Of a stretch of DNA of 39,766 bases, positions 506-6,228 are shown piece after piece. The position numbers were made by a program, and so were the translations under genes. The stretch is from Thalassovita litoralis (lineage in GTDB: Bacteria > Pseudomonadota > Alphaproteobacteria > Rhodobacterales > Rhodobacteraceae). The notes under the pieces are model-generated. The model searched no databases and was not told the DNA's origin. It was given only the letters and a program-made list of their open reading frames with translations. The stretch is taken from positions 1-39,766 of the forward strand of contig NZ_FXTO01000031.1 in assembly GCF_900182725.1 (NCBI RefSeq), given 5' to 3'. The first letter of the stretch is position 1, and every line of letters begins with the position of its first letter.

Positions 506-720
506 GCTGCATCGCCCCCGCAATCTGAGGTATCGCTTGCGCATTTACAGGCAATCCACTCAAGGAGGCGCTCGGCGGTACGCATTGAGCATGTACCCCC
601 CGACTTCAGCCTTGAATATAAACGACTATTCCCAACCGCCCTCTCCGTTATCGTTGAGGGAGAAAGCGTCAGTGCCTGCGCACATTGCTCAATTTTTCCT
701 ATGAGTTCTCTTTCCGACAT
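502..720 (-). CDS. Cro-like small DNA-binding protein (72 residues)
   Basis: First gene of the leftward operon, divergent from the repressor. The pattern STITERAVGNSRLYSRL, then GGTCSMRTAERLLEW, matches a small phage family common in alphaproteobacteria, in which a helix-turn-helix of the type LSPSTITERAVGN is followed by a conserved MRTAERL helix. By position it is likely the Cro-like or early regulator of the lysis/lysogeny switch (inference). Its start at 720 lies only about six bases beyond the weak -10 region, so the mRNA may be nearly leaderless. Its stop overlaps the next ATG (502-505). Confidence 0.65.
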   Translation of the reverse strand: MSERELIGKIEQCAQALTLSPSTITERAVGNSRLYSRLKSGGTCSMRTAERLLEWIACKCASDTSDCGGDAA

Positions 721-726
721 GCCCCC

Positions 727-755
727 ACATATGGACTATTGTCCACATCTGTCAA
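727..755 (-). promoter_or_regulatory. Leftward early promoter with repressor operator in its spacer
   Basis: On the minus strand a perfect TTGACA (755-750) is followed by a 17-base spacer and weak -10 candidates (CATATG or TATGTG, between 733 and 726). The operator TGGACAATAGTCCA (745-732) fills the end of the spacer and the start of the -10, so a bound protein would block polymerase. The -35 is clear; the exact -10 is uncertain. Confidence 0.6.
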
Positions 756-769
756 TAGACAATTGTCTA
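732..769. promoter_or_regulatory. Operator pair of the immunity region
   Basis: Two 14-base dyads lie between the divergent genes: TGGACTATTGTCCA at 732-745 and the perfect palindrome TAGACAATTGTCTA at 756-769, with centres 24 bases apart. The first is identical to 1707-1720 and to the reverse complement of 1735-1748. The most likely binder is the XRE repressor encoded at 809-1132 and/or the Cro-like protein (inference from position and repetition). Confidence 0.75.
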
Positions 770-808
770 CTGTCGGGCAGGTTGCAGCGGCGATACACTG
801 CAACCACC

Positions 809-1132
809 ATGGAAAAGACCTTCAGATCAGCCTTTTTAGCGCACCTCGAAAAATCCGGGGAGAGTGTAGCCAACATCTCGCGTAAGTCTGGAGTATCGAA
901 ATATCAATTGGATAAGCTAAAGCAACGAGAGGGTGCCAAAACTAACGTCGAAGACGCAATCAAGGTTGCGGCGGCATTCGGCCTCAGTCTCGACGCCTTC
1001 CTCGATGAGCCGCAGGCTTCAAGCCAAGCTGAGATTGTTTCATTATACAATCAACTATCCTCTGCGGAGCAGGAGATGATACTAGCCGCCGCACGAGCTC
1101 TTGCCGAGCGCGGGAGTCAGGGCAACGATTGA
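809..1132 (+). CDS. Phage repressor, XRE/Cro-CI type HTH (107 residues)
   Basis: The ATG at 809 is chosen because the frame upstream runs through the operators. The segment from VANISRKSGVSKYQLDKL to about FGLSLDAFLDEP is a typical XRE helix-turn-helix followed by the amphipathic helix VEDAIKVAAAFGL. The rest (SLYNQLSSAEQEMILAAARAL) is a short helical tail often seen in small CI-like repressors. No S24/LexA-type peptidase domain is present, so RecA-stimulated self-cleavage is not expected. It is divergent from the Cro-like gene across two operator dyads and probably represses both early promoters. Confidence 0.8.
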   Translation: MEKTFRSAFLAHLEKSGESVANISRKSGVSKYQLDKLKQREGAKTNVEDAIKVAAAFGLSLDAFLDEPQASSQAEIVSLYNQLSSAEQEMILAAARALAERGSQGND

Positions 1133-1822: not shown

Positions 1823-2161
1823 TTGTCAAACGAACGGACATCCCTGCATCTGACCGACGCCTGCCCGGCATCGGTCATCCTTCACCCGGGCAACATGCCC
1901 GTGGAAACCATCCAGACAGCATGGGACGCGCTCAAACGCGAGCGCGGTCAAAGCTGCAACTGGGATCGCCTTCACTCCCTGCCCTCGCACCACCAGATCA
2001 CTGCGCAATCCGAAATCTCCAGTGAGGATACTGTGCAGACGATCCTTGATCGCTGCGCCGGACGCGCCGCCAGTATCCGCCAGCAGGCTGCTGCCCGCTT
2101 CCAATCCCGCCAAGCGCGACGTCCTGCGGGCTACGCTTCAACTGGGGGGGATGCGGCATGA
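1823..2161 (+). CDS. Hypothetical phage early protein (112 residues)
   Basis: No family recognised. The start is a TTG at 1823, seven bases after GGGAG (1811-1815), and is the first good start after the early promoter. The stop overlaps the next ATG (ATGA, 2158-2161). The N-terminal half contains PVETIQTAWDALKRERGQ; the C-terminal part is helical and rich in Arg, Gln and Ala (ILDRCAGRAASIRQQAAARFQSR would be one long helix). As first gene of the operon it may be an early regulator or anti-host factor, but nothing in the sequence proves this. Confidence 0.55.
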   Translation: MSNERTSLHLTDACPASVILHPGNMPVETIQTAWDALKRERGQSCNWDRLHSLPSHHQITAQSEISSEDTVQTILDRCAGRAASIRQQAAARFQSRQARRPAGYASTGGDAA

Positions 2162-3096
2162 AACCGATCAAACCAACCTTGGCTGAACTGTCCGACATCA
2201 TGCGCCGCAATGGTGGCTCTCTCTACCTGCGCGGCACAGCTATCACCGCCCTGCCGGATGGCCTTAGCGTCGGTGGCTATCTCGACCTGAGCGGCACAGC
2301 TATCACCGCCCTGCCGGATGGCCTCAGCGTCGGTGGCTCTCTCTACCTGAGCGGCACAGCTATCACCGCCCTGCCGGATGGCCTTAGCGTCTGTGGCTAT
2401 CTCGACCTGCGCGGCACAGCTATCACCGCCCTGCCGGATGGCCTCAGCGTCGGTGGCTCTCTCTGCCTGAGCGGCACAGCTATCACCGCCCTGCCGGATG
2501 GCCTTAGCGTCGGTGGCTATCTCGACCTGAGCGGCACAGCTATCACCGCCCTGCCGGATGGCCTCAGCGTCGGTGGCTCTCTCTACCTGAGCGGCACAGC
2601 TATCACCGCCCTGCCGGATGGCCTCAGCGTCGGTGGCTCTCTCGACCTGCGCGGCACAGCTATCACCGCCCTGCCGGATGGCCTCAGCGTCGGTGGCTCT
2701 CTCTGCCTGAGCGGCACAGCTATCACCGCCCTGCCGGATGGCCTTAGCGTCGGTGGCTATCTCGACCTGAGCGGCACAGCTATCACCGCCCTGCCGGATG
2801 GCCTCAGCGTCGGTGACTCTCTCGACCTGCGCGGCACAGCTATCACCGCCCTGCCGGATGGCCTCAGCGTCGGTGACTCTCTCGACCTACGCGGCACGGC
2901 TATCCCGGTGATCTATCGGGACGAGCGCGACTACGAACTGCGCCGTATCATGTGCGGATCGGAAGAATGGTGGGTGGCCGGGTGCCGCAAGTTCACCAGC
3001 CGCGCCGGTGCGTTGGCGCATTGGGGAGCAGACGATTACCCGGATCGGGTGCGCGGTGCGGCGTTTTGTGCAGCTATCAATGGGGTGGCGGCATGA
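2158..3096 (+). CDS. Tandem-repeat (leucine-rich-repeat-like) phage protein, 312 residues
   Basis: After about 20 N-terminal residues the protein consists of some eleven 20-residue repeats of the type GTAITALPDGLSVGGSLDLR (residues about 22-245), then a unique C-terminal domain (about 250-312: VIYRDERDYELRRI, EEWWVAGCRKFTSRAGALAHW). Regularly spaced Leu/Ile positions predict a solenoid. Similar modular proteins with a short conserved C-terminus occur in phages and prophages, with unknown function. The DNA repeats are nearly identical, so copy number can change easily. ATGA overlaps couple it to both neighbours. Confidence 0.75.
   Translation: MKPIKPTLAELSDIMRRNGGSLYLRGTAITALPDGLSVGGYLDLSGTAITALPDGLSVGGSLYLSGTAITALPDGLSVCGYLDLRGTAITALPDGLSVGGSLCLSGTAITALPDGLSVGGYLDLSGTAITALPDGLSVGGSLYLSGTAITALPDGLSVGGSLDLRGTAITALPDGLSVGGSLCLSGTAITALPDGLSVGGYLDLSGTAITALPDGLSVGDSLDLRGTAITALPDGLSVGDSLDLRGTAIPVIYRDERDYELRRIMCGSEEWWVAGCRKFTSRAGALAHWGADDYPDRVRGAAFCAAINGVAA
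2221..2900 (+). repeat. 60-base tandem repeat array with a 240-base higher-order unit
   Basis: Eleven consecutive 60-base units plus a degenerate twelfth share the core GGCACAGCTATCACCGCCCT. Variation is confined to a few positions: TAC/GAC/TGC, CTGAGC/CTGCGC, CTTAGC/CTCAGC and GGCTAT/GGCTCT. The order of variants in units 2341-2580 recurs almost exactly in 2581-2820, showing duplication of a four-unit block. It is translated in frame throughout and has no unique spacers. Confidence 0.95.
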
Positions 3097-3260
3097 GCAT
3101 GTTTGAACACCTCAACCGCCCACAAATTCGCCGCGACCGGCTGCGCGATCTGTCTGCGCGTATTCTGCCCGGTCTGGGTGCGTTCCTTCTCATCATCGCA
3201 GCGCTCTATCTGGCCTTTCTGTTCGGCCAGTTTCACGGCGCCATGCAGCGGGTGTGGTGA
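3093..3260 (+). CDS. Small single-pass membrane protein (55 residues)
   Basis: The start ATG at 3093 overlaps the previous TGA (ATGA). After a basic N-terminal half (QIRRDRLRDLSAR) there is one hydrophobic segment, about residues 26-45 (LPGLGAFLLIIAALYLAFLF), then a short tail. A positively charged segment before the helix predicts the N-terminus in the cytoplasm. No family recognised; small one-helix proteins are frequent in phage early operons and often inhibit host functions, but this is not shown here. Confidence 0.6.
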   Translation: MSMFEHLNRPQIRRDRLRDLSARILPGLGAFLLIIAALYLAFLFGQFHGAMQRVW

Positions 3261-3628
3261 TGAGCCTGCATTCCCATTTCGACCGCCGTGCCGTGTTTCC
3301 GGCGTCCTTGAAGGGCAAAAGCCCCGAGGCGCGGGTGGATGCCTTTGCGAACGAGGTGCTGGAAACCGGCGGCGTGTGGACCACCCCACCGGGTGACTAT
3401 GACCCGGACAGCCGCGCCCTGTTCGAGATCCACCTGCACGGCATCACCGCCACCGGCTGGACCAAAAGCAGCGCGATCAGCACTTGGGTTACGATGGCCC
3501 ATGTCAAAGCGGCATCAGCCTGCCCCCGCTGTGGCGGGCGCGGCGTCATTCATTGGCACCCCCATTGGGACAACGGCCATGAACCCTGCCCTGATTGCAT
3601 AGGTTCAAACCAGAAGGCGGCAGGCTGA
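3260..3628 (+). CDS. Zinc-ribbon-like phage protein (122 residues)
   Basis: The start ATG at 3260 shares one base with the previous TGA (TGATG). The C-terminal part carries CPRCGGRG and, after HWHPHWDNGHEP, CPDCIG: two CxxC pairs of the DnaJ zinc-finger kind, likely to bind one Zn ion. The N-terminal 80 residues (FANEVLETGGVWTTPPG, YDPDSRALFEIHLHGI) show no family known to me. It sits in the middle of the rightward early operon; a role in nucleic acid binding is possible. The in-frame GTG codons just upstream are less likely starts. Confidence 0.6.
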   Translation: MSLHSHFDRRAVFPASLKGKSPEARVDAFANEVLETGGVWTTPPGDYDPDSRALFEIHLHGITATGWTKSSAISTWVTMAHVKAASACPRCGGRGVIHWHPHWDNGHEPCPDCIGSNQKAAG

Positions 3629-3735: not shown

Positions 3736-3762
3736 CCCAAAGCAACGAAAGGAAAGACCCAA

Positions 3763-4017
3763 ATGACACAGATCGACAGCGCCAGCGACGACCGAACCAC
3801 GAACAACGCCGTGCGCCACAAGTACCGCACCCTGACCGATGCTGAAAAAATCCAGATGCAGGACATCAAGGATATGGGCGCGACCTTCATCGCCAAACTG
3901 CACGAAATCGGTGGCACAGACAGCACATCAGATCGCTTTGCCTCACGCGATCTGAGCCTTGCAAACACCCACGTCGAAGACGCGGTCATGCGCGCCGTGC
4001 GCCACATCACCAGCTAA
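3763..4017 (+). CDS. Acb2/Tad1-like hairpin-domain protein: candidate cyclic nucleotide sponge (anti-CBASS/anti-Thoeris)
   Basis: The 84-residue protein follows a GGAAAG ribosome site. From Y21 on it fits the Acb2/Tad1 hairpin fold: YRTLTDAEKIQMQDIKDMG (helix 1), a loop with HEIGG, then SRDLSLANTHVEDAVMRAVRHIT (helix 2). The last part matches the family signature SRELxxAxTxxEEAVMWAVxHIT closely. As I recall, Acb2 binding of cyclic dinucleotides depends on Tyr11 and Lys26; Y21 and K36 here have the same 15-residue spacing. Members form hexamers that sequester CBASS or Thoeris signal molecules, protecting the phage. Family membership is my pattern match; sponge activity and ligand are inferred. 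Confidence 0.75.
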   Translation: MTQIDSASDDRTTNNAVRHKYRTLTDAEKIQMQDIKDMGATFIAKLHEIGGTDSTSDRFASRDLSLANTHVEDAVMRAVRHITS

Positions 4018-4828: not shown

Positions 4829-5021
4829 AGCCACCGTCACGAAAGCATCCATAGCCAGAGCAATCGAAGCGACAAAGTCGTGCGGCCTGCCTGTATCTGG
4901 CGTGGAAATCTCCGCTGACGGCACAATCAGGGTGCTCACAGAAGCACGGCAGCCAATCGATACAGTTGCCACTACAACCCGAATCGATAGACCATCAGGC
5001 CCCAAACAATGGCGGACATGA
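4821..5021 (+). CDS. Small protein preceding the integrase (66 residues)
   Basis: The ATG at 4821 is preferred over upstream in-frame starts because it starts the conserved-looking part KATVTKASIARAIEATKSCG followed by VEISADGTIRVL. Small proteins of this style (helix, then a strand with ADGTI) often precede phage integrases in alphaproteobacteria; their role is unknown and an excisionase-like function is only a guess. The stop overlaps the integrase ATG at 5018 (ATGA). Confidence 0.6.
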   Translation: MPKATVTKASIARAIEATKSCGLPVSGVEISADGTIRVLTEARQPIDTVATTTRIDRPSGPKQWRT

Positions 5022-6112
5022 CGGAAGCGGATATGCGTGTGAGGTTGCCAGGCCTTCTAAAGGAACGCCACAGAAACGGCACTATACGATGGCGCGTGCG
5101 TGTAGATGGCGATAAGCGCAAGCGCATAGCCATTCCAGTGGGCACAGATCATCCTGACTTTTTGAATCATTACTATGCCGGACGTGCGGGGCGGGAGTGG
5201 CAGCTAGGCACGGAAACCGAAGTTGAAAGGTCTCTCGATTGGCTCATCCGACGGTATCTGGATTACTTATCCAAGATGGTGGAGGCAGGCCAAATGTCGG
5301 ACGCCACGCTCCGCCAAAGGCGCAGTGTTCTCGCCAGGCTGTGCGATCACCTAGATGAAGATGGTACCCGATATGGTGATTGCGACATGGATGCGCCGCC
5401 TGCGGCATTCATCACCATCAGGGACGCATGGGCTGATCGTCCGGGGGCGGCTGACAACCTGATCAAGACCATCAGGGCGGTATATGAATGGTCAATTGAG
5501 CGCGGCGAAATCGCTCATAATCCAGCCGCAGGGATTGCTGCGATTAATAAGCGCCCGAAGGGTGGTGCTACCCCCTGGACGCCCGACGATCTGCTAAGGT
5601 TCAGGGAGGTACACCCCAAAGGCAGCACCCCATACCTGTGGCTAACCCTGCAGGCATTCACAGCTTGCCGAATTGGTGATGCAATTTGGTTGGGCCGCAG
5701 CAACGAAAAACTCCACAACGGGCGCATATACCTTGAGTGGCAACCCCGTAAGAAAGGGTCTGCTCCCGTGAGCATACCAATGCTGGAACCGCTATATGAG
5801 GCAACTAGATCGGCGACTGTAGTAGGGCCAGCATACATTCTCACGCAGCGCGGAACCCCATACAAAACAGCGGAGAGCCTTCGCAATCAGGTACGAAAGT
5901 GGTGTGACGCCGCCGACCTGAAAGACAAGAGCTCTCATGGGATCCGCAAAGCTATGGCTGGCCTCATGGCTGAGGCTGGATGCAGCCAGCACCAGATCAT
6001 GGCCGTCATGGCGCACACCCAGGCGAAGACGTCAGAAATTTACACAAAAGGCGCTGAGAGGCGTTTGCTGGCGGCTGATGGTATCGCAGCGCTCACCAAG
6101 CTGAAGTGGTGA
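5018..6112 (+). CDS. int: Tyrosine-family integrase
   Basis: Site-specific recombinase that inserts and excises the element. In the 364-residue form the N-terminal part binds arm sites, about residues 70-165 form the core-binding domain and the catalytic domain follows. The catalytic set is visible: R218 (TACRIGDA), Lys in the RKKG turn near 245, H307 and R310 (SHGIRK), H333 (MAHTQAKTSEIYT) and the nucleophile Y342. I chose the ATG at 5018 because it forms an ATGA overlap with the gene before, as throughout this operon; ATGs at 5009 and 5033 (the latter after GGAAG) are alternatives. It is the last gene before attR and would be expressed with the early operon. Confidence 0.93.
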   Translation: MTEADMRVRLPGLLKERHRNGTIRWRVRVDGDKRKRIAIPVGTDHPDFLNHYYAGRAGREWQLGTETEVERSLDWLIRRYLDYLSKMVEAGQMSDATLRQRRSVLARLCDHLDEDGTRYGDCDMDAPPAAFITIRDAWADRPGAADNLIKTIRAVYEWSIERGEIAHNPAAGIAAINKRPKGGATPWTPDDLLRFREVHPKGSTPYLWLTLQAFTACRIGDAIWLGRSNEKLHNGRIYLEWQPRKKGSAPVSIPMLEPLYEATRSATVVGPAYILTQRGTPYKTAESLRNQVRKWCDAADLKDKSSHGIRKAMAGLMAEAGCSQHQIMAVMAHTQAKTSEIYTKGAERRLLAADGIAALTKLKW

Positions 6113-6205: not shown

Positions 6206-6228
6206 TTTGATTCCAGGGTCGCCCACCA
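6206..6228 (+). other. Candidate attR: tRNA 3'-end fragment
   Basis: The 23 bases have exact tRNA 3'-end spacing: a seven-base T-loop (TTTGATT), five-base stem strand (CCAGG), seven-base acceptor strand (GTCGCCC), discriminator A and CCA. The five bases before it (TTGAA) do not pair with CCAGG, and no D-arm or anticodon arm precedes, so this is a fragment, as left by integration into a tRNA 3' end. The inverted repeat AAGGCAA/TTGCCTT (6187-6202) beside it could be an integrase site. The tRNA identity is not determined. Confidence 0.65.

Follow-up and report, generated by a model that had tools for sequence, protein, structure and literature searches.

An acb2-type gene, probably encoding a cyclic-nucleotide sponge, beside the integrase of an integrated element in Thalassovita litoralis

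Among the known systems closest to the protein considered here are Vs.4 of phage T4, Acb2 (p26) of phage PaP2 and Tad1. In T4 Vs.4, according to PMC10097602, Y8 and F82 stack on cyclic GMP-AMP (cGAMP), Y8, H11, K23 and R79 make polar contacts to it, L29, A66, A73 and A77 lie at the hexamer interface, T12 serves as a helix cap and S74N disturbs binding; Y8A and F82C are described as loss-of-function forms in PMC12657218. In Tad1, the N-terminal part is a beta sheet of four strands, and conserved loops contribute to the pocket for glycocyclic ADP-ribose (gcADPR; PMC12043709). We analysed a 39,766-nucleotide stretch of Thalassovita litoralis (NZ_FXTO01000031.1), the whole of which is called the window, and in it an acb2-type gene at 3763..4017 on the + strand. 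Its 84-amino-acid product (P0001) is, with high probability, a hexameric cyclic-nucleotide sponge of the Acb2 family; the element that carries the gene is integrated and probably of phage origin.

Membership of the family follows from several comparisons. The window protein matches Pfam PF24729 (Acb2_Tad1_hairpin) with an E-value of 4.1e-17 and 62.6 bits (gathering score 27), well above what chance would produce, and the validated PaP2 Acb2 and T4 Vs.4 score 66.1 and 71.4 bits, respectively. It also matches PHROG 717 (E 1.6e-5), the PHROG that yielded the Vs.4 homologues of Jenson and colleagues (PMC10097602). A single-sequence search of the PDB sequences with the window protein found nothing. 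When a profile of alignment A2 (82 rows, the window protein and 81 relatives) was used instead, the first 8 of 19 matches were chains of p26/PaP2 Acb2, Vs.4 and Tad1, with E-values from 0.0012 to 0.07; one of these eight, 7uav, was deposited as 'ABC transporter ATPase', and its sequence is that of 8smd, the Tad1 of a Clostridium botulinum prophage (PMC11722364). Alignment with PaP2 p26 and T4 Vs.4 by hhalign gave a probability of 96.4% over profile positions 21-84, and all 82 members of A2 match PF24729. The first-pass annotation, made from the sequence alone, had placed the protein in the Acb2/Tad1 hairpin family, and the profile search bears this out. Its broader label of an Acb2/Tad1-like sponge survives in its Acb2 half; the Tad1 half is less likely for an 84-residue protein of helices only, with no beta domain. 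Judged by its sequence, the protein is thus a clear relative of Acb2, of the Acb2 type and not the Tad1 type because the N-terminal domain of Tad1 is missing, and it belongs to a distinct branch of a known family. Pfam has already named the family; the window protein adds a member and, possibly, a new specificity. A putative Acb2 from a Microbacterium phage was named in a 2026 announcement (PMC13348362), so naming new members has become routine; a full-text literature search, with subscription papers mostly outside its reach, returned no paper on a Rhodobacterales Acb2 branch among the matches listed.

The open reading frame (ORF) had been delimited correctly, running from ATG to TAA and encoding 84 residues. 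A probable ribosome-binding site, the purine-rich, Shine-Dalgarno-like aaaggaaag, lies at 3748..3756 (+), and purine-rich stretches are seen by eye upstream of many relatives' acb2 genes too. Comparison of the window gene with each of 13 hand-chosen relatives gave ratios of nonsynonymous to synonymous polymorphism (pN/pS) of 0.21-0.34; therefore, the ORF is under purifying selection and looks protein-coding.

The residues that form the dinucleotide pocket of T4 Vs.4 are kept. Y21 (codon 3823..3825), K36 (3868..3870) and R80 (4000..4002, all on the + strand) align with Y8, which stacks on cGAMP, and with the cGAMP contacts K23 and R79. The Tyr/Lys pair with its 15-residue spacing is therefore present as first noted, as are the C-terminal helix SRDLSLANTHVEDAVMRA (residues 61-78) and the following VRHIT (79-83). 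At the level of sequence, the interface alanines A66, A73 and A77 of T4 correspond to A67, A74 and A78; the equivalents of T4 L29 and F33 are ambiguous, as the aligner places a gap there. T12 of T4 corresponds to T25, and the window protein departs from T4 with T83 for F82, L24 for H11 and V75 for S74, sites at which PaP2 Acb2 departs as well (A88, L14 and M80). Conservation was assessed in 98 distinct proteins, drawn from 137 of 146 loci with a profile match (the window's own and repeated contigs included); from these, alignment A2 omits 12 by script and five more for doubtful starts, with the window protein added. With Y/W, R/K, A/G and A/S exchanges scored as kept, each pocket or interface site is retained in at least 95 of the 98: Y/W at 21 in 95, K36 in 96, R62 in 97, R/K at 80 in 95, A/G at 67 in 96, A/G at 74 in 97 and A/S at 78 in all 98.

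The predicted fold agrees with these alignments. Two single-chain AlphaFold2 models place helices at residues 26-50 and 62-83, with block means of the predicted local distance difference test (pLDDT) of 85 to 96 from residue 21 on; a short N-terminal helix (9-18 or 10-14) is predicted with low confidence, block means in the N-terminal arm being 52-57, and no strands are predicted. The model therefore has the small stand-alone architecture of Acb2, a short N-terminal segment followed by two long antiparallel helices. Foldseek searches of the PDB returned Acb2 or Vs.4 as the first five and the first six chains for the two models, and the ten best matches among viral models are all named Acb2/Tad1 hairpin, both with weak E-values. 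The predicted fold is that of an Acb2 protomer, and the two-helix hairpin first supposed is what the models give.

For the window protein we infer a hexamer, ligand binding and its specificity, expression and its timing, and an effect against the cyclic-oligonucleotide-based antiphage signalling system (CBASS). The protein, with its two long antiparallel helices and short N-terminal segment, would probably assemble into a hexamer, with pockets for cyclic dinucleotides formed by protomer pairs between Y21, K36 and R80, and the trimer faces may hold cyclic trinucleotides. On induction of the element, or on infection of a new cell, the sponge would bind the signal of a CBASS cyclase before it reached the killing effector, and the cell might survive long enough for the phage to multiply.

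In the subfamily to which the protein belongs, two features were compared. The first is a conserved N-terminal arm (residues 1-19; 3763..3819, +), which lies outside the Pfam domain, is absent from T4 Vs.4 and PaP2 p26 and has the consensus S-x-S-D-x-R-T-x-N-N-A-V-R-H. Its residues R11, N14, N15, R18 and H19 are each kept in 92 to 96 of the 98 proteins (R11 in 93, N14 in 92, R18 in 96 and H19 in 94), making the arm about as conserved as the hairpin. The second is the residue at position 77, where 53 of 96 distinct proteins, the window's included (the 98 minus one truncated and one distant sequence), have W and the other 43 have R; because relatives were sampled nearest first from the query, R77 is over-represented and these frequencies are not population values. 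Residues 76-80 do read MRAVR, and the first-pass annotation was right that W is common where this protein has R77; the substitution is not rare, however, and the R80 it had singled out in place of an expected K is not unusual, as T4 Vs.4 (R79) and PaP2 (R85) also carry R. Position 77 varies together with 63, 70, 73 and 80, the sets being D-H-D-R-R (38/96), E-K-E-W-K (28/96) and E-N-Q-W-K (19/96), and the loop of R77 proteins exceeds that of most W77 proteins by about nine residues, a long loop also being found in 11 of the 53 W77 proteins. On a FastTree phylogeny of 93 sequences (five of the 98 left out) built without the linked columns, position 77 required 5 changes, compared with 30.7 on average after shuffling; R77 is therefore mainly a mark of descent.

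Relatives were sought in genome, viral, phage and plasmid records. The genome contigs gave 16 loci, of which 15 are alphaproteobacterial (NCBI taxonomy) and one comes from a Nitrospirota bin. The 13 genome loci with R77 (L004-L015 and the truncated L018) comprise 12 from Rhodobacterales (Paracoccaceae and Roseobacteraceae) and one from Methylobrevis (Hyphomicrobiales); R77 marks a mainly Rhodobacterales branch. A first scan of viral contigs gave 31 loci; alignment A1 comprises the window protein and 36 of these 47 genome and viral loci, and, with an alignment as query, 325 of 338 matched viral-contig stretches encoded a relative and 80 loci were kept. Phage records yielded 18 matches at E up to 1, only four of them covering 80% of the query, and the plasmid records scanned yielded none. 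Five PF24729-positive loci among the host's relatives (L059, L063, L065, L066 and L067) are not matched by the subfamily profile at E 1e-6; thus, other Acb2/Tad1 kinds occur in these relatives too. In three other genomes this acb2 type is present in two or three copies (L004/L005, L006/L008/L018 and L020/L021/L022), L018 in Paracoccus cavernae having a match limited to residues 58-84 and looking truncated. Across 101 loci, after removal of identical ones, the commonest neighbour cluster occurs at 11 by crude ORF calls, so the gene is found in many contexts. The finding suggests that elements in Rhodobacterales and related groups not uncommonly carry sponges of the Acb2 type.

It is possible, though we would not favour it, that the long-loop R77 branch and its arm have shifted the specificity of the sponge towards a cyclic nucleotide that the CBASS systems of its hosts use, such as a trinucleotide, and away from 3',3'-cGAMP. 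This would be a special case of a cyclic-nucleotide sponge, and the probabilities of the two overlap. The linked sets at positions 63, 70, 73, 77 and 80, the location of R77 three residues from R80 and the conservation of the arm point in this direction, as does the near-invariant R62, which aligns with PaP2 R67, a contact of cyclic tri-adenylate (cA3), a trinucleotide. However, the switch mostly follows the tree and may reflect common descent only, and position 77 varies among validated members (W76 in T4, A82 in PaP2). Still more tentatively, one might picture a sizeable, largely alphaproteobacterial branch in which the near-invariant Arg/Asn/His arm and the D-H-D-R-R set reshape the ligand sites, tuning them to nucleotides that sponges of the T4 and PaP2 types bind poorly. 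Should the arm indeed alter the ligand, this branch would lend itself naturally to studying what determines sponge specificity.

A protein that has kept the fold and taken on another role in the phage, structural or regulatory, is improbable: the homologue of Sinorhizobium phage Aussie does lie between the head-to-tail adaptor and stopper genes, but the pocket residues are kept and the varied neighbourhoods are more in keeping with an accessory anti-defence gene than with a structural component. Least likely of all is a Tad1-like anti-Thoeris protein sequestering gcADPR, since, for all that PF24729 spans both families and the C-terminal helix can be aligned to PDB chains of Tad1 (E 0.06), 84 residues without a predicted strand leave no room for the beta domain that helps to shape the gcADPR pocket, and the host genome has no match to ThsB TIR.

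The sponge reading had carried the expectation that the host or its competitors would possess CBASS or Thoeris. That the host is a Roseobacter, as first assumed, is likely from its relatives. In the host genome itself, searches with SMODS (PF18144), a CBASS-type cyclase family, and ThsB TIR gave no match. Of 147 related genomes, 11 have SMODS, 10 with scores that exceed the cut-off, and two of the 11 belong to the host's genus. PF24729 is found in 10 of the 147 genomes, host included, and two genomes have both, a co-occurrence that is not significant (Fisher p 0.16). The defence search of the host covered the CBASS, Thoeris, type III CRISPR and Panoptes families alone: mCpol and Cas10 palm, like ThsB TIR, gave no match with positive controls (the mCpol control below its cut-off), and PF21654 and SAVED gave no match either, though no control matched. 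Panoptes is triggered by Acb2 in Escherichia coli, according to PMC12657218 and PMC12657230; as mCpol was not matched, Panoptes was not found in the host. Because a sponge helps the phage in its next host, these negative results do not count against sponge function.

The acb2-type gene sits at one end of an element that has inserted into tRNA-Tyr, with an integrase gene 1 kb away. The tyrosine integrase is encoded at 5009..6112 (+; PF00589, E 1.1e-12; PHROG 1 integrase, E 2.8e-34), and the attachment-site core at the integrase end is a 20-bp copy of the tRNA-Tyr 3' end at 6209..6228 (+), identical to that end of the intact tRNA-Tyr on another contig of the same genome, C7. That contig also carries the flank that precedes tRNA-Tyr in a relative. 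At three of the four same-genus loci scanned, the sequence found after the element in the window lies next to an intact tRNA-Tyr; the fourth has none within the stretch examined. On the basis of the 20-bp copy, the tRNA-Tyr of C7 and the intact same-genus sites, the window contains that end of the tRNA-Tyr-inserted element which bears the integrase. No phage structural gene was seen; the assembly consists of 81 contigs. The element is probably a prophage, as suggested by relatives in viral contigs and by a putative, weakly repressor-like gene at 701..1132 (+; PHROG 8 transcriptional regulator, E 2.6e-4; Pfam HTH matches below the cut-off).

The same genome holds a second copy of the gene, on contig C61 (4,094 bases; L003). 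Its ORF is identical at 254 of 255 bases, the stop codon alone differing, and encodes the same 84-residue protein; the upstream sequence is identical at 603 of 630 positions, and downstream there is no match beyond 15 bases. With the ORF and its upstream region near-identical and the downstream regions unmatched, the acb2 cassette is shared by two related elements or by different parts of a single mosaic. Downstream of the cassette C61 carries different genes, including one with a PHROG 204 match, and a product that by eye resembles a DUF2303 protein beside another acb2 gene (L014). The gene just upstream of acb2 (3254-3628) is present in both the window and C61, and its product has a CxxC zinc-ribbon-like C terminus and a DnaJ-type match below the cut-off (E 0.0066). 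A leucine-rich-repeat-like gene for 312 amino acids (2158-3096), with a 60-bp tandem repeat of 11.6 copies at 93% (2212-2904), is missing at the matching place on C61 and so looks like an insertion or a loss. Further upstream, the 138-residue product of 1220-1636 contains a HIRAN domain (PF08797, E 7.7e-7) and weakly matches the PADLOC candidate PDC-M03B (E 2.2e-4). Beyond the intact tRNA-Tyr, C7:1-9000 (L155) encodes a Y-family DNA polymerase (PF00817), a 510-residue product that has a P-loop motif (GxxxxGKS) and lacks a Pfam match at E 0.01, and a DUF3800 protein that matches the PADLOC candidate PDC-M04A (E 4.8e-27); these genes are possibly cargo of the same element.

Set beside the known systems, the window protein is closest in kind to Acb2. 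With PaP2 Acb2 (PDB 8h2j, 8h2x), it shares the Pfam domain, a Tyr/Lys pair 15 residues apart (Y11 and K26 in PaP2), L at the site of T4 H11, the pairs R67/R62 and R85/R80 (PaP2/window) and small residues at two of three interface sites; PaP2 Acb2 differs in its lack of an N-terminal arm, its longer inter-helix stretch and A82 in place of R77. T4 Vs.4 (PDB 7uq2) has the same residue as the window protein at Y8, K23, R79, T12, T68, A66, A73 and A77, and differs at F82/T83, H11/L24, S74/V75, W76/R77 and D61/R62 (T4/window) and in having no N-terminal arm. Tad1 (PDB 7uav, 8kbg) is similar in the C-terminal helix (FSSRENACALTHVEEALMW vs FASRDLSLANTHVEDAVMR) and in the Pfam domain, whereas its N-terminal antiparallel beta domain has no counterpart in the window protein. 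The homologues of Dunaliella viridis virus SI2 and Sinorhizobium phage Aussie, annotated as hypothetical proteins, belong to the same subfamily and have the arm, with 53.7% and 43.2% identity, respectively, but they carry W at position 77 and a short loop.
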